Part shown: in pieces, positions 28,975-60,988 of the stretch | Layout of the letters: every line of letters begins with the position of its first letter | How positions within the stretch are numbered: the stretch's first letter is position 1 | Source: Brachionus koreanus | Taxonomy: Eukaryota > Rotifera > Eurotatoria > Ploima > Brachionidae | Length of the DNA stretch: 64,000 nt | NCBI GenBank assembly: GCA_016987375.1 | Contig: PJRA01000263.1 | Span: 1,248,169-1,312,168, forward strand | Direction of reading: 5' to 3' | The notes under the pieces: model-generated | What the model saw: the letters and a program-made list of their open reading frames with translations, nothing else | Told to the model about the DNA's origin: nothing | The model's database searches: none | Made by a program: the position numbers and the translations under genes

Positions 28975-29310
28975 TTCCCTCAATACCATTTCGTTTTAAA
29001 TTGTAATAAAAGCTTTGAGTGATTCACTCTATTGAAGGCTTTAGAAAAATCTGTATAGAGTACATCCACTTGATTGCCTAGAGATATTTGATGTGTCAAA
29101 AAATCAAGACTCTCGAGGAGGTTTGTAGTACACGATTTATGAAGAATAAATTCATATTGTAATTTATTAATTAATTTATTTGCAAGACAAAAATTTAATA
29201 CCAAATTTCTAATAATTCTCTCTGCAATACGGCATGGTATCGATATGATTGGGATAGGCCTTTATTTTTTACGGTCTGATTTATTTCCTTTTTTGAAACT
29301 CATTAAAAAA
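28975..29310 (-). mobile_element. Non-LTR retrotransposon RT fragment, N-terminal part
   Basis: The minus strand reads FKKGNKSDRKK, one stop, RPIPIISIPCRIAERI, then a 74-residue open frame with CTTNLLESLDF and VDVLYTDFSKAFNRVNH. These are the FKKGDKxDxxNYRPIS, QxGF/TNLL and DFxKAFDxVxH blocks (RT domains 0-2) of Jockey/CR1-type enzymes. It is truncated after the DFSKAF block and has a stop, so it is inactive. It differs clearly from the 24-kb and 38-kb copies. Confidence 0.8.
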
Positions 29311-37719: not shown

Positions 37720-39015
37720 ATTTGTTTACTTATTATTATTTATTTGTTTTCTGGAGCGAGCTAGAGCTCCTTCAGAATAAAGTAAAAAAAAAAGATGTAA
37801 ATAAAATTTAAAAGACATAGGTACATGTGACAGAAGTTTACATAGCTGAAGCTTCATGAAAAAAAGAGGAAATAGTAATGGAGTAGGATATTCAATATAC
37901 TTTGATTCGAAGTCTGGTTTGTATTCATCCACTAGTCTGACAACCAATGGAATAGAACTATTCAGTCCTGTCCCAACATATCTCTCACTCAGCTCAAAAA
38001 GCCGATTTGAGACTGTTAGTAATTTAAGTTTATTAAAAGCCTCATGATGCAACATGTTGGAGAGAGTATCATATTTTAACTTAAGGATAAATCTGATTGC
38101 TGTGTTCGGAATTGCTTGTAATTTTTTGATATTTTTTTCTCAAAATGAATTCAAGCAGGCATTCGCATTAAGAATAGTCTAAAATTGATCCGACTAAAGT
38201 TTTATATAGATTTCCTAGTGAGTTTTGAGTAAGACACCATTTTTTATTTGACAAATAATATTTAACTTTAATTCGTTCTTTAATTCGTCTACCAGTATAT
38301 TAAAGTTTAAATTGGAATCAAATTTAATGCCAAGAAACTTTATTTCTTTTTGGCTGACTATTCTGTTTCCATAAATTTTTAAGTTAAGATTTTCACTCTC
38401 TTTTTCGTACCTAGAAAAGATTACAGAACATGACCATTACAACTGATATCTTCATTTTTCATTTAATAAGCCATTGTTGTAGTTCTTTGGTGAATTTAAT
38501 TATCTTATTTTCGAGTTTCCCCTTTTTATTATAAATGTAGAATGTAACTAGATCATCTGCAAAAAGTAAAAAGTATTCATTATTTGTTTTGTTTCTTTTG
38601 GGGATGTCATTAATATTTATACTAAATAAAAGAGGACTGATTACTGAGCCTTGAGGAAGACCTGCAGTTATTTGATATTCTTTGCTCGGGGGATCACTCA
38701 TATTAACCTTAAATGTCCTAGAGTCCAAAAAGGATCTAATCCAGTTAGTCAAGTAATGAGGTAGATTCATTTTAATCAATTTAACATTAAATTATGAATT
38801 TGGTCAGGTCCTGATCCCGATTCGTTTTTCAATCTCTTTAAAGCTATAATTAATTCATTTAGGCAAATGGATCATTAAAATTACACTTATCATAATTTCA
38901 GAGTTAAGAATTAAGTATTTCGAAATCTTTTCAGGATCTATTTAATCAGAATTAGGACTAAATATTGAAGATAAGAGTTCTCCGAAGCATGTTTCCTTGT
39001 CTTCATTAGTTTTGA
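37720..39015 (-). mobile_element. CR1/Jockey-type non-LTR retrotransposon fragment, copy 2
   Basis: Same family as 24036-25065 but longer at the 5' side. Reading 39015 to 37720: a degraded linker (CFGELLSSIFSP), IGIRT/GSGPDQI-type sequence with frameshifts, then a 106-residue open frame with NWIRSFLDSRTFKV, GLPQGSVISPLLF and LLFADDLVTFYIY (RT blocks 3-5), then the C-terminal part with HHEAFNKLKLLTVSN. The 3' end has a GAGC/GCTC hairpin (about 37758-37769) and an AATAATAATAA tail. Several frameshifts and stops make it inactive. Confidence 0.85.
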
Positions 39016-53692: not shown

Positions 53693-54187
53693 TCAATGTC
53701 TGTTATGTGACTTTCTTCTTTCCCTTGAAGAGCTTCTCTTTCTCTCTCTCGAGCAGCTTCTTTTCCTGTCTTTACTTTTCTTTCTTTCTCTACTATGTGA
53801 CTTTCTTCTTTCCCTTGAAGAGCTTCTCTTTCTCTCTCTCGAGCAGCTTCTTTTCCTGTCTTTACTTTTCTTTCTTTCTCTACTATGTGACTTTCTTCTT
53901 TCGGTAGAGTGATGAATTCTTCTATGTTTATCTTTACATTTTTTATGACAACAGCAATGACGATTTTTTTGACATTTTTTTTTTCTGTCCAAGACATCTG
54001 AATTTTCTTCATCTGAATGACTTTGTGTATCTTTTTCCTTTTCATCATTCTTTTTCTTATTTTTGGTTTCTTCGTCATCATCACTACTTGAACTAGAACT
54101 AGAACTATCGCCATCTTTATTCAAAATCTTCTTAAATGAATCAATTAATGATGATTGGTATTCAATGCTTGTTTTTTCTTCAGTCAT
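53693..54187 (-). CDS. Small RS-domain (Arg/Ser-rich) protein
   Basis: 164 residues on the minus strand. The N-terminus is non-repetitive (about 25 residues), followed by an eight-serine run and an Asp/Glu/Lys-rich segment. A Cys-His cluster (residues about 72-85, CQKNRHCCCHKKCKDKH) follows, then an RS domain of SRER, SRERKRSSSRERRKS and RKKSKDRKRS units. The RS part contains two exact 30-residue copies encoded by a 90-bp tandem DNA repeat. RS domains are typical of splicing factors and regulators of phosphorylation-dependent nuclear assembly, but no RNA-recognition motif is visible, so the function is unknown. A second minus-strand frame (53617-54114) is also open through the repeat and reads a Glu/Lys/Arg-rich sequence. 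I favour the RS frame because it has the longer unique N-terminus. Splicing to another exon is possible. Confidence 0.55.
   Translation of the reverse strand: MTEEKTSIEYQSSLIDSFKKILNKDGDSSSSSSSSDDDEETKNKKKNDEKEKDTQSHSDEENSDVLDRKKKCQKNRHCCCHKKCKDKHRRIHHSTERRKSHSRERKKSKDRKRSCSRERKRSSSRERRKSHSRERKKSKDRKRSCSRERKRSSSRERRKSHNRH
53705..53894. repeat. 90-bp tandem repeat, about 2.1 copies
   Basis: The unit starting ATGTGACTTTCTTCTTTCCC (plus strand) at 53705 recurs exactly at 53795 and begins again at 53885 before diverging at TCGGTAGAG. Ninety bp is a multiple of three, so both overlapping minus-strand frames stay open across it. Identical copies suggest a recent duplication. Confidence 0.9.
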
Positions 54188-55419
54188 TTTTAAAAAACAC
54201 TTTTTTATTTATCTATATTTAAAAATGTATAATTTTATAATTTATATTATATTATTAATAACAAGATAAATATTGAAAACTTCAGATACTTGAGCTTTTA
54301 GTCAAATATGAACATTTTGTTGGCATAAGATTTATTTTTTAGAATAATGAAAAACAAAATCACAAAAGACCTTTAAAGAATTTTAATTTATGATTAACAA
54401 AATTAGCTTGAAAGCGCTTAAAACATCTTCAATTTGATCTGAACATCAACATTTTAAATTTCCAAGTTCGATTGATGGATTTATTTTTAATTCAGATATA
54501 TCTTAATTAATAACAACAATAGAATAGAATAAATTTTTAAGATTTAAACCATTTTTCTTTTAATATAATGTTTAAAATAAATTGAAAACAAAAAGAATAA
54601 AACAACAAAATTAAAGAAATTTCAAAAAGAAAATAAATGCTTTAAACAAAATAAGTTTTTTTTTTCTTTTACAAGAGTGACCGAGAAATAGACAATGAGA
54701 ATATTAAAAGGAAAAAATCTTTCTATACTTTTTGTATTTTATGGTATTTAATTTTAAATAAAAGTCCTCTAGTTTAAAACAATCCGTAAGTGTGACATTA
54801 AAAAGCAATTATCAAAAACAGGATTATATTGATAAAGCAATTGGTGAAAAAATCTAACGGTTAAAATGGCATGAAGAAAAAAAAGCTCTCCTAACAATAG
54901 CATTTATAGAATCAGATAAGTCAAATGAACATTCTAAAATAGATTAATCAATCAAATCTGATAACAGATAATGTGCAAAAAGTAATATTGAAATTTTTGT
55001 CTATTTTTGGTGTAAAAATATCGCTTGATTGAGCTTCGACTGCATATTTTAATCACTATTTTTATTTTATATTTAATAAAATAGTACCACCAGCTTTAAC
55101 ATTTAAATTTTTATATGTATGACAATTTTTTTTTCAAAGAGTTAATGGTTTTTTTTTTAATGTGCTCTGGTAGGTTCATAATAAAGGTTATAAATAAGTT
55201 AACTCAAAAATAGTTTTAACATTTTTCTAAATATTAAAATCTCATTGGTTATCCATGGTTTGATCTATTTCTAAAGTTAACGTCTTTTTAAGATACAAGA
55301 TATTTTTAAAATTTCAAAATTTTAATGCTTATATGATAAATAAATGTTCGTTCTTTTCAAAGCTAATATTCACATGAAACTCAATCGAAAAAGTCAACTA
55401 CTAGTTAAAAACATGTATA
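54188..55419. other. Intergenic stretch
   Basis: No gene recognised. It lies upstream of the RS-domain gene (minus strand) and runs into the RTE relic. Confidence 0.4.
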
Positions 55420-55593
55420 GATCCCTGTATCTTAACTTCATTGAAAGCCTATGTGATCATAAAAAAAGCTTTATGAGCCATATTAAGATCATTTGTTCTG
55501 TCAAACAAGATAACAAGCATGTGGATTAGCAAAAAAGCTTGAAGACTTAGACTTTTCGGATTATATAGTGCTAATATGTAGACGCAAAATTAG
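55420..55593 (+). mobile_element. RTE-type retrotransposon relic, RT part, left of nested insertion
   Basis: The plus strand reads FIESLCDHKKSFMSHIKIICSV (similar to the RTE block around ESLW), then KLEDLDFSDYIVLICRRKI. The latter matches LEDLDFADDIALLS, the RTE catalytic block, with FADD decayed to FSDY. The next residues of the protein are found only at 58332, after a 2.7-kb insertion. Internal deletions and stops show decay. Confidence 0.7.
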
Positions 55594-58331
55594 TAGTGAT
55601 GGTGGTTAACCAACGCTTGGTCGACCAAATTTGCCAACTTTGGTTAACCCAAATCAGGTTAGCCAATTTATGGTCGAACAAATTTTGGTTAACTAATATT
55701 TGGTTCTTAATTTGGTCTCCCAAAAAAAATAAATAAGCTGGCTATCCAACTAGTAGTAGTAGTAGTAGTAGTTTGATGACTGCGAGTTGCCGGATGACTC
55801 CAGCAAGAGAACCTTAGTCCTATGAGCAGCCTGTTCTCTGGTCGTCAACCTTCTTCTTGAAGGAGTTGACACTCGGTGCGTCAATGACTGCATCGNNNNN
55901 NNNNNNNNNNNNNNNNNNNNNNNNNNNNNNNNNNNNNNNNNNNNNNNNNNNNNNNNNNNNNNNNNNNNNNNNNNNNNNNNNNNNNNNNNNNNNNNNNNNN
56001 NNNNNNNNNNNNNNNNNNNNNNNNNNNNNNNNNNNNNNNNNNNNNNNNNNNNNNNNNNNNNNNNNNNNNNNNNNNNNNNNNNNNNNNNNNNNNNNNNNNN
56101 NNNNNNNNNNNNNNNNNNNNNNNNNNNNNNNNNNNNNNNNNNNNNNNNNNNNNNNNNNNNNNNNNNNNNNNNNNNNNNNNNNNNNNNNNNNNNNNNNNNN
56201 NNNNNNNNNNNNNNNNNNNNNNNNNNNNNNNNNNNNNNNNNNNNNNNNNNNNNNNNNNNNNNNNNNNNNNNNNNNNNNNNNNNNNNNNNNNNNNNNNNNN
56301 NNNNNNNNNNNNNNNNNNNNNNNNNNNNNNNNNNNNNNNNNNNNNNNNNNNNNNNNNNNNNNNNNNNNNNNNNNNNNNNNNNNNNNNNNNNNNNNNNNNN
56401 NNNNNNNNNNNNNNNNNNNNNNNNNNNNNNNNNNNNNNNNNNNNNNNNNNNNNNNNNNNNNNNNNNNNNNNNNNNNNNNNNNNNNNNNNNNNNNNNNNNN
56501 NNNNNNNNNNNNNNNNNNNNNNNNNNNNNNNNNNNNNNNNNNNNNNNNNNNNNNNNNNNNNNNNNNNNNNNNNNNNNNNNNNNNNNNNAGATCGTTTATG
56601 AAGACCACGAAGAGCGTTGGACCTATGACTGAGCCTTGAGGGACTGAACTCATAACTGGTGTCCAGTCCGAGCAATTCTCTCCAAGGATAACTCTTTGCC
56701 TTCTGCCCGATAGAAACGCTCTGATCCATCTGAGAACGGTTCCACCTATCCCGTTAGCCGAAATCTTGAGCAATAGACGTTCATGCGGAACCTTGTCAAA
56801 AGCTTTGGCAAAATCGGTATAGATGACATCTACTGGGCATTTGTCTGCGAGTGCCCTTGTCGTCAAATCAGCTGATTCTAAGAGGTTCGTCACACAGGAC
56901 TTTCTAGGAACGAAACCGTGCTGCTCCTTACATATCAGGTTGTTGGCTACTAAATGTCCAACCAAACTGTCCCTAACCATGCTTTCCATGATCTTAGTGG
57001 CACTGAGGTTAGTGAAACTGGTCTGTAGTTACCCGGGTCTTTGCGACAACCTTTTTTGAAGATTGGGGTCACGTTGGCGTCCCTCCAGCATGACGGTACT
57101 TCTCCTTCAGCGAGTGAGCGTGCGAAGATCATAGCTAGTGGTACTGCCCAAGCGGAGGCACATTTCTTGAGAACTAGAGGGTGGACGAGGTCATTACCTG
57201 GCGACTTATCTTCCCTCAAGTTCGATAGACGTTTTTCCACCTCTGCTGTTGTAATATCTAAATTTATCAGGCGAGATTTGATGACTGGTCTCTCCTCAAA
57301 GTCCGGAGGACTTTTGTCTTCTTTTTCATTTGCAAAAACTGAAGAGAAATGAGCGTTTAGTGCATCAGCAATCACCTTACCTCCGCTATACTCGATATCA
57401 TTCGAAAATATCTTCACGATTCCTTGCTTGACTGACTGCTTAGAACTGATGTAGGTGAATAATCGCTTTGGATTCTTTTTATCGTTAGCGAGACTTAGTT
57501 CAAATGTCCTCACGGCCTTTTTTGTGGCTCTTTTAACATTAGCACTCATAACTCTGTATTCTTCAGCTGTGGACTTGCTCCACGAGTTATCGTTTATATA
57601 TTTCAATTGTCTCTTGCGTTTTACCATTCGTTTTAGTATGCTGTTAATCCACGGGGCATCGGTCCTCCTTCTAGGCCGTGCTATTGGAATGAAATCTCTG
57701 CATAGCTGGCTGTATACACCAAGAAATAGACTATACATGACGTTGACTTGCTGTTCATTGAAGATTCTGGTCCAGTCAATTTTGCGAAGCTCTTTTTCCA
57801 TTGCCATGTAGTCTCCCTTGTGTACGGGCAATCGACGACGAGGCGGAGCACCCTGTTGCTTATCTTTTGATGCTATGGTTAGTTCCCATTGCATCACTAC
57901 GTGACCTTGAATGGCTGGACCAAGAGGAGGCGCCTGCTTCACCTCATCGACTCTTGCTGGATCGTCGGTTAGGATCAGGTCCAAGGTGTTTGTGGTCTTA
58001 CCAACTAAAAAAAGATGATTTTGCTTTTAACAAAAAAAAATGATTAGGATAATCTCTAAACTATCAAATATGGCTAAAATCTTTATCAAAGATTAATTAA
58101 AGAATTAATTTTATTTTGTTCAAAAATTAATGTCTTAAAATTCTATTTTAATTCTATATTAAAATTTTGACCTCAAAATTTAAAAAATTTCAAAATTTGT
58201 TTAGATAATTAAATTTTGGTCAAAATTTGGTCGACCGAAATAGTCGACTTTAAAAAGCCAAAAACTGGTTAGCCAAAAATTGGTTAACCTAAATTGGCTA
58301 ACCAGCTAACCAAGCTTAACCAACATCACTA
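55594..58331. mobile_element. hAT-like element with nested retrotransposon
   Basis: The ends are inverted repeats. The left end TAGTGATGGTGGTTAA and the complement of the right end TAGTGATGTTGGTTAA differ at one of 16 positions. Both sides carry the perfect 8-bp duplication AAAATTAG (55586-55593 and 58332-58339). Without the retrotransposon inside it, the element is about 480 bp and non-coding. It is dominated by GGTTAACC, GGTCGACC and TTGGTTA palindromic motifs near both ends, probably subterminal transposase sites. An 8-bp duplication and TAGTG termini indicate the hAT superfamily, non-autonomous. It interrupts the RTE relic. Confidence 0.8.
55753..58000 (-). mobile_element. CR1/Jockey-type non-LTR retrotransposon, GC-rich, nested
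   Basis: Reading 58000 to 55753: the end of the AP endonuclease (TLDLILTDDPARVDEV); a linker with PWINSILKRMVKRKR; SPGNDLVHPLVLKKCA; then the RT blocks VTPIFKKG, GNYRPVSLTSV, EQHGFVPRKSCVTNLLE, VDVIYTDFAKAFDKVPHE and VPQGSVIGPTLFVVFIND. There follow 693 N (55896-56588) and a C-terminal DAVIDAPSVNSFKKKVDD. One frameshift lies near 57000, between the frames 56950-57984 and 55820-56989. The 3' end is a (CTA)n trinucleotide tail. Target duplication CCAACTA occurs at 55746-55752 and 58001-58007. Near-balanced GC content against an AT-rich host suggests a recent insertion. It is 5'-truncated. Confidence 0.9.
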
Positions 58332-58890
58332 AAAATTAGGTGAACAACGCTAAAACAACTGGACTCAAAATTAATATGACCAAAGCAAAAGTTATGTGAA
58401 TCAACATCAAATTGTATACCGATTGCTGATGCACATATTGAGTGTGTAACCGAATTTACGTACTTAAAGAAGGACCAGATCATTCGCAAAATCTAAATCT
58501 TCATCGTAATAATTAGTAATAAATGTAGGGGTATGTGTGAATTCGACAAGAAAAGTCTGAAAACCTCCTACACTGGAAGCTTGCGGAGGATTCTGGTGAT
58601 ACACTGGCCCGAGACATTGTCAGATGTTGATCTATAGAAAAAAACAAATTCAGGACCATCAAGTCAATACATCAAGAGAAAAAGATTGCGATGGCTTGGA
58701 CATATACTTAGAATGAAAGAAAAAAAGAGACCCAAAAAAACCCTTCAATGGACACCTCAAGGACGGCGTAAGACCAGAAGTAACATGGAGGTCAACAATC
58801 AAGAAAGAGCTCAACGAAATAGGAATAATTTGGGGGAGAAGCTAGAATATAGACAAAAGATCGAATTGAGAAAAAATCAAAAGCAATAAC
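58332..58890 (+). mobile_element. RTE-type retrotransposon relic, right of nested insertion (RT end and C-terminal domain)
   Basis: Continues the protein interrupted at 55593. It reads TTLKQLDSKLI and, in a neighbouring frame, GLKINMTKAKVM. Next are ECVTEFTYL (the RTE ECVxxFTYLG block), LRRILVIHWPETLSDVDL, KRLRWLGHILRMKEKKRPKKTLQWTPQGRRK and an EVTWRSTIKKEL-type ending. Frame changes occur between blocks, so the element is dead. The order and motifs match craniofacial-development-protein-2-like RTE products. Confidence 0.8.
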
Positions 58891-59052
58891 CATATGCTCC
58901 AAAAAAATTGAATCGATAAAAAAACAAGAACATGATTCTTTTTTCAAAATTTTTCTTAAATCGAGATTTTTGGTTAAGAGAAAACATAGAACTTGGAGAA
59001 GAAGAGGTTTTTACATTTGGTTTTTGACTATGAATTTTTTTTTATTTACAAG

Positions 59053-59149
59053 TAGACTTGTTTATAAGTCACAGTTTCAAGTCTAAGTCAGAAAAAGTCA
59101 AGTCAAAGTTATGACTTGACTAAAGACTTGTGACTTGAAAACAAGTCTG
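59053..59149. mobile_element. Fold-back MITE with 8-bp target duplication
   Basis: 97 bp with inverted ends YAGACTTGTTT followed by AAGTCACA on both arms. It is flanked by the perfect 8-mer TTTACAAG (59045-59052 and 59150-59157). The interior repeats AAGTC/GACTT in both orientations and would fold into a long hairpin. The 8-bp duplication suggests hAT. A GACTTGACTC-type cluster at 62765-62815 may be a damaged relative. Confidence 0.65.
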
Positions 59150-59521: not shown

Positions 59522-60988
59522 ATGAATGAATCAGATAGCCATGTTATATCAAAAGATAACTCGACTATTTATCCAAACGAACAAGCATCAAATTCAATCG
59601 CTCAGCCATCAATTGGACTAAAACTCATTCTCAAACGTCAACACGGTGACAAATACGAAATAAGAAATCCAAATTCAGCCTCTTCTAATTGTTCCTCGAA
59701 TTCGTCGCGGCCAAAACGTGAAGCAGCTCGCAAGGTAAAGTTCGATTTTGAATCAGACGAGTCGCCTGTCAAAAAAAGACCTAAAAACTCTACCAATCAT
59801 GCGGTAAAAATTCCAAAATTGCATTTAATCAATTACACTGAGACATGTATTCCCTTCGAACCTTGTGAATTGGTCGAAAAAAATGACGCGTTGCTCAATC
59901 AAATATCTGAACATAATGTCAAAATAGCTGTCAATCATTCAGTGCCATTTCCCATTGCATTGGTCGAAGATAAGACAAACATTGTGCACACCAAGGCTCT
60001 TTTGATGATTCACCTCTATCAGTCCTATTCAAGTCCTTGCATCATTTGTGTTCTATGCAAACAATTTTTCAGCATACCTGATTTTTCCAAACATTTTCAC
60101 ATTGGCGAAGACGACTTGGACACTGAGAGCAGTGACGATGAACTAGATCAGAGTTCATTTCGCGCATTCCTTAACGAATTGGAGGAAAAAAAAGAAAAAA
60201 AACTGAAAAAATTGAGAAAAAAATCCTATAAAATTTTGCCTTATTTTTTGAATCATAATAACGAGCTGAATGAAAATCAACTTAAAACATGGAAATTGTT
60301 TTCAAGCAAATTTTCAGCGTTCAAATCGAACAGACAAAAAAAAAAGGACGATCATAAAGAAATCGAAAAGCAAAAAGAAGCAGAAAAATTGGCTAAAAAA
60401 AGACTACGAATGCCCAGGCCAAAGTCAAAACGTAAGCCAGATCCTGAATTGTGCAACTGGGACTTTATTAGTGATGAAAAAGAGGACAAATATTTTTTTA
60501 TGAACAGACATCGTTTAGAATGCGAAAAAATTGTTTATTTGGAAAAAAACGGTCGGCGTCTGTCTGACATAGACACAGACTCGGACCAAGAAGTCAAGAC
60601 TCCCAACAAGTTGACTCTGCCACATGATAAAAAAGAAAACAGAGCACTAGACACCAATGAACCTGATTTATCTTTGTCAGAAAACGAGGATGACGAAGTT
60701 AATGAAGACATAATTAAAAAACCCTCTAAAGAATCTCCCATTTATTTTTATGACACTCCACCCTCAAAATTACAAAAGCAGTTTAATTACTATGAAAACC
60801 TGTCGCCTAATGTTATCAAATACATAAATGAAGGAGAAATTTTAGTACAAAGTCTTAGTTTAGTAATGTTTAATTTGTATAATAAATTCAATCAGAGAAA
60901 AGAAGTGCTGTTGTCTAAGACTGATGAAAATCGTCTCAAATGGTTGAGCATTGTGCTGGATTTGGACATTATTAAATCCAAAAAATAG
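59522..60988 (+). CDS. SKI/SNO-like protein with SMAD4-binding (SAND-like) region
   Basis: Single open exon of 488 residues. Residues about 145-193 align with the SKI/SNO SMAD4-binding domain: VPFPIAL, ALLMIHLYQSYSSPCIICVLC, then FSIPDFSKHFH, parallel to SKI [28 protein letters not shown] and HKFVVHSH. Possible zinc ligands are Cys173, Cys176, His191 and His193. The CHWGF block that normally follows within about 10 residues appears only at Cys311 (CNWDF), after about 115 residues of acidic then Lys/Glu-rich coiled-coil-like sequence. No Dachshund-homology domain was found before it. Several Asp/Ser and basic clusters suggest a nuclear protein. SKI/SNO proteins are corepressors of SMAD signalling; that role here is inferred. 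An upstream exon is possible, because an acceptor abuts the ATG. Confidence 0.65.
   Translation: MNESDSHVISKDNSTIYPNEQASNSIAQPSIGLKLILKRQHGDKYEIRNPNSASSNCSSNSSRPKREAARKVKFDFESDESPVKKRPKNSTNHAVKIPKLHLINYTETCIPFEPCELVEKNDALLNQISEHNVKIAVNHSVPFPIALVEDKTNIVHTKALLMIHLYQSYSSPCIICVLCKQFFSIPDFSKHFHIGEDDLDTESSDDELDQSSFRAFLNELEEKKEKKLKKLRKKSYKILPYFLNHNNELNENQLKTWKLFSSKFSAFKSNRQKKKDDHKEIEKQKEAEKLAKKRLRMPRPKSKRKPDPELCNWDFISDEKEDKYFFMNRHRLECEKIVYLEKNGRRLSDIDTDSDQEVKTPNKLTLPHDKKENRALDTNEPDLSLSENEDDEVNEDIIKKPSKESPIYFYDTPPSKLQKQFNYYENLSPNVIKYINEGEILVQSLSLVMFNLYNKFNQRKEVLLSKTDENRLKWLSIVLDLDIIKSKK

Follow-up and report, generated by a model that had tools for sequence, protein, structure and literature searches.

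In RTE-type LINEs a reverse transcriptase with an FADD block precedes a characteristic C-terminal region. In CR1-like LINEs an endonuclease end is followed by the reverse transcriptase, copies are 5'-truncated and a short repeated tail closes the 3' end. The end motif given for hAT terminal inverted repeats is YARNG. Mar, a hAT MITE of Drosophila, retains conserved terminal inverted repeats and 8-bp duplications in 79% of its copies; these duplications fit nnnTAnnn, and a full-length copy has been found as a relic (PMC3517528). In nested clusters of such elements, insertion order is read from which element interrupts which, as set out in the REANNOTATE paper (PMC2672092).

Here we describe a cluster of this known kind in a Brachionus rotifer. 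The window, by which we mean the whole stretch of 64,000 nucleotides analysed, lies at C1:1248169-1312168 of the genome used for comparison (83 Mb in 92 contigs). A receptor gene encoded there matches Brachionus plicatilis at 86% over 80% of the gene's length and B. calyciflorus at 68%, and a further match reaches 92%, which makes the host probably a member of the plicatilis complex. The window contains an RTE-type relic split by a hAT-like MITE that is itself split by a CR1-like LINE, and this three-layer nesting is real and well bounded. The cluster is flanked by two diverging reading frames: the first begins near 54187 and runs on the minus strand, and the second occupies 59522-60988 on the plus strand. 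The features are as follows.

55410-55593, plus strand: RTE relic, left part; reverse-transcriptase region with decayed catalytic block
55586-55593, no strand: left copy of the 8-bp target-site duplication AAAATTAG, a perfect match to 58332-58339
55594-58331, plus strand: hAT-like MITE, arms at 55594-55752 and 58008-58331, split by the CR1-like insertion
55594-55609, plus strand: left terminal inverted repeat TAGTGATGGTGGTTAA, from sequence and genome end search
55746-55752, no strand: left copy of the CR1 target-site duplication CCAACTA, present once at the uninterrupted site in 4 of 18 siblings
55753-58000, minus strand: CR1-like LINE, 5'-truncated, with 3' tail (CTA)n from 55753 onward
55896-56588, no strand: 693 N, assembly gap or withheld stretch, wholly within the CR1-like LINE
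58001-58007, no strand: right copy of CCAACTA, from sequence
58316-58331, minus strand: right terminal inverted repeat, reading TAGTGATGTTGGTTAA on that strand
58332-58339, no strand: right copy of AAAATTAG, a perfect match to the left copy
58340-58927, plus strand: RTE relic, right (3') part, with DNA matches to many genomic copies

Each layer can be compared with its closest described system. The relic resembles RTE-type LINEs in having the reverse-transcriptase block and the typical C-terminal region in the same order, and differs in its advanced decay, which includes deletions and an inverted filler. The inner element follows CR1-like LINEs in its endonuclease end followed by reverse transcriptase, its 5' truncation and its short 3' repeats; it differs in its tail unit, CTA. 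The MITE has in common with Mar short, non-coding copies, terminal inverted repeats and 8-bp duplications. Unlike in Mar, neither nnnTAnnn duplications nor a full-length relic were found in the rotifer, and arrays with many GGTTAACC/GGTCGACC-like motifs lie near the ends of the copies in the sibling alignment. Compared with the clusters treated in the REANNOTATE paper, the same principle of reading order from interruption applies, and the window adds empty sites in siblings and relative identity. The nesting is of a known kind (PMC2672092).

The borders of the MITE were examined through its ends. The two 16-bp inverted ends agree at 15 of 16 positions. A genome search with the end pattern returned 91 matches at no more than one mismatch, as against 3 for a reversed-pattern control; at up to three mismatches the excess disappeared (1539 matches, control 1845). 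From the list of 91, 18 sibling end-pairs were chosen by eye, and two singletons lacking a second end (L027 and L028) stand outside this count. A perfect 8-bp duplication borders 11 of the 18 siblings, or 12 of 19 with the window included, and the remaining pairs of the 19 agree at 7 of 8 positions (four), 6 of 8 (two) and 4 of 8 (one). When left and right flanks were combined from mismatched copies, only 2 of 342 combinations reached at least 7 of 8. No perfect 9- or 10-bp duplication was seen among the 18 sibling pairs. These siblings are 192-1224 bp long, all but one of them within 192-950 bp, and the window MITE is 73.3-91.6% identical to them. The two arm searches, with 40 candidates out of 51 and 40 out of 77 scored, set lower bounds on copy number; they gave 21 arm-paired copies, of which 20 span 295-730 bp and the window copy alone is longer, at 2738 bp. 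Being short, non-coding and multicopy, with conserved ends, these elements form a MITE family. The initial annotation had proposed looking through the genome for copies with the same ends and without the inner insertion, and such copies were found among the siblings.

That annotation had also called the middle element hAT-like, with 16-bp inverted ends and a perfect 8-bp duplication. The duplication of AAAATTAG is indeed perfect and the ends differ at one position; the hAT label is one that we infer from end motif and duplication length, with no transposase linked to the element. The end TAGTGATGTTGGTTAA begins TAGTG, which fits YARNG, the motif given for hAT and not exclusive to it. Matches to the hAT dimerisation domain number 65 in this genome, and the 14 control genomes in the same search were silent. 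The match nearest to the family places from the arm searches lies 4.2 kb outside a copy, and the MITE ends are absent from the three hAT loci that were read. Scanning three 3.2-kb hAT loci for inverted repeats with duplications gave nothing. An autonomous partner was found neither by these approaches nor by the end search at up to three mismatches or the searches with both arms. This absence of a transposase linked to the MITE ends would also suit an element from a different superfamily with 8-bp duplications, such as a P-like one. Such an origin would agree with the MITE duplications, which on our reading lack a clear Ac-type or Buster-type motif, and with the use of YARNG as an end motif of the P superfamily too, as given in PMC2820524. 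Two P-type transposase families had no match in the genome; as the controls for both were also silent, that search is uninformative. Set against the 65 hAT-domain matches and the TAGTG end, we consider a non-hAT origin unlikely and continue to treat the middle element as hAT-like.

On the outer side, the RTE relic is recognizable on both flanks of the MITE. In tblastn against the RTE frame of a genomic copy (L050), its left part gave three collinear pieces, 55410-55478, 55456-55521 and 55526-55570, each weak singly (E 0.8-1.1). About 60 codons have been lost by internal deletion between 55521 and 55526. The third piece holds FSDY in place of FADD, confirming the decayed catalytic block that had been placed just before 55593. 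In a shuffle test, 55410-55522 scored 73 against the same copy; the maximum in 300 shuffles was 43, and none of the 300 reached 73. At the DNA level, 55519-55590 is 86% identical to C49 over 72 bases. The right part, from 58340 to about 58927, matches many copies at 73-86% in long rows. Within this flank, 58474-58503 is an inverted copy of the relic's own catalytic block. It belongs to a short filler that stands, between 58477 and 58522, where about 165 bases of the normal element would be expected, and it looks like a product of repair or template switching. No Pfam domain was found in the C-terminal piece. Protein matches to L050 numbered 1256, the 120 listed being those with the reverse-transcriptase domain PF00078; schistosomes, a turtle, fish and an annelid are named among them. 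The RTE label is a provisional one. Elsewhere in the window, two minus-strand stretches have translated matches to reverse transcriptase: 38546-38767 (E 5.8e-08), likely a further LINE fragment, and 29010-29159 (E 1.4).

The relic is interrupted at 55593|58340, and joining its flanks with one copy of AAAATTAG had been said to make the RTE protein alignment continuous. A single alignment spanned the joined junction in 9 of 41 related loci, corresponding to 8 genomic places as L036 and L047 overlap. In the other 32 there was none: several break at a 25-nt deletion in the RTE alignment a few bases upstream of the duplication, and some match the right part only. In some of the relatives, then, the joined flanks do behave as one RTE element. 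Across 14 RTE copies, hand-picked among those matching around the junction, the summed score was 1678 at register 0 and lower at all 14 slips from -9 to +9, slips being able to lose score by construction. With both duplication copies kept, the sum rose from 1678 to 1703: of the 14 RTE copies, 9 scored higher, 3 lower and 2 the same. In our interpretation the 8 additional bases fill in some of the adjoining 25-nt deletion. The junction test therefore cannot tell a single retained copy from two, and the one-copy point is carried by the perfect duplication and the sibling family, not by the junction score. The span 55594-58339, which had been put forward for removal, does include the element; the element itself ends at 58331, and 58332-58339 is one copy of the duplication. 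One might argue that the MITE never interrupted an RTE element, and that it is flanked by two RTE fragments by chance or has captured an RTE piece, given that an RTE piece sits within a sibling MITE at C34. At this locus the left and right RTE parts run collinearly in a single orientation and meet at the duplication, which makes this reading extremely improbable. Interruption of the RTE relic by the MITE remains our preferred reading.

Similar reasoning applies to the inner border. The inner element had been described as CR1/Jockey-type, with a CCAACTA duplication and a (CTA)n tail. Both the duplication and the tail are present; the (TAG)n run adjoining 55752 is the tail read on the minus strand, and the 7-bp duplication itself ends in CTA and so overlaps with the tail unit. 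Tails of 3-5 CTA units occur in four relatives. In 4 of the 18 siblings (L011, L018, L021 and L022), a single CCAACTA with the same flanks is read through, which shows directly what the target looked like before the LINE arrived. In the other 14 the stretch is absent or different. The reverse-transcriptase domain RVT_1 was detected by Pfam at E 2.2e-15. A frameshift near 56990-57010 breaks the coding sequence: 56950-57984 is open in one frame and 55820-56989 in another, with an overlap between them. The first codons look like the end of an endonuclease region, and the LINE is accordingly 5'-truncated. For the N-terminal piece Pfam gave no meaningful domain, its sole hit (an unrelated family, E 0.044) lying below the cut-off, and for the out-of-frame piece it gave none. 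A truncated 5' end, short 3' repeats and a target-site duplication are all present. As the organisms named among the listed protein matches (120 of 656) are mostly birds, plus a turtle and Hydra, the element looks CR1-like rather than Jockey. Its best relative, on C28, is 97% identical over 1305 bases, and the five longest relatives, C28 included, are 92-97% identical. Short pieces range from 81 to 100%, the 100% being an 86-base stretch on C24 and the others falling at 81-95%.

The reported gap at 55896-56588 is present as 693 N inside this inner element, and N runs also lie in or beside the same element in L072, L073 and L074. A scaffold that joined unrelated repeat copies across the gap could mimic nesting. 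The gap, though, is entirely within the CR1-like element, and the sequence runs without a break through the two MITE-CR1 junctions and the two RTE-MITE junctions. The stretches left and right of the gap fall on one element in L074, spaced about as expected: 785 bases in L074 (66 being N) correspond to 703 in the window, indicating that the gap is about the right length. With the duplications AAAATTAG and CCAACTA both perfect as well, an assembly artefact is very unlikely, and the nesting is best taken as genuine. The N runs in or beside the three relatives suggest that a young CR1-like repeat may break the assembly. Beyond the cluster, a CAAGTC/GACTTG-rich stretch at 59054-59149 has a 20-bp inverted repeat (90%) and a 38-base match of 95% in L057, and is possibly another small repeat.

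The order RTE, then hAT, then CR1/Jockey had been read from the sequence, and it holds when layers and borders are compared with the genome. What the sequences show is the borders, the duplications, the empty sites in siblings and the order of nesting. Best identity to relatives rises inward, from about 86% for the RTE relic through 91.6% for the MITE to 97% for the CR1-like LINE; the 86% rows for the RTE cover 207 bases on C34 and 72 on C49, other long rows being at 73-81%. This rise is a consistency check on the order, not a dating. At another locus (L026, C34:616167-617390), the opposite nesting was found: a sibling MITE whose duplication agrees at 7 of 8 positions encloses some 950 bases of RTE. 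This insert begins with an inverted part and continues with one in sense orientation, which is 92% identical to another copy over 579 bases; the arrangement looks like a twin-primed 5' inversion. About 380 bases of the MITE are missing at the insertion site, and a duplication around the insert was not established. RTE activity seems to have gone on after the MITE family began spreading, and because an RTE sits inside a sibling MITE at C34, the order seen here does not extend to the families as wholes. A combined proposal is that the TAGTGATGTTGGTTAA-ended MITEs overlapped in time with RTE activity, MITE and RTE being nested both ways round at different loci, and were also moved by a transposase outside the recognizable hATs of this genome, either lost or from a different superfamily with 8-bp duplications; it is an unlikely one.

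Cumulatively, we favour three successive insertions, RTE-type LINE, hAT-like MITE and CR1-like LINE, by the following mechanisms, with a probability of roughly 0.93: 1) an RTE-type LINE would have inserted between two genes and then decayed; 2) a non-autonomous hAT-like MITE would have entered it by cut-and-paste, duplicating AAAATTAG; and 3) a CR1-like LINE would have entered the MITE later by target-primed reverse transcription, duplicating CCAACTA, losing its 5' end by truncation and retaining its (CTA)n tail. The enzymes and mechanisms in these steps, like the superfamily of the MITE, are inferred.

Such nesting is ordinary in animal genomes, and this locus, whose families we leave unnamed, is of a known kind. 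No description of it was found in the literature searched, which is not to claim that none exists. No open question is settled by it. As a worked example it is clean: three layers with readable borders, empty sites in paralogues and identity rising inward together act as a local relative clock for the three families of elements in this Brachionus rotifer.
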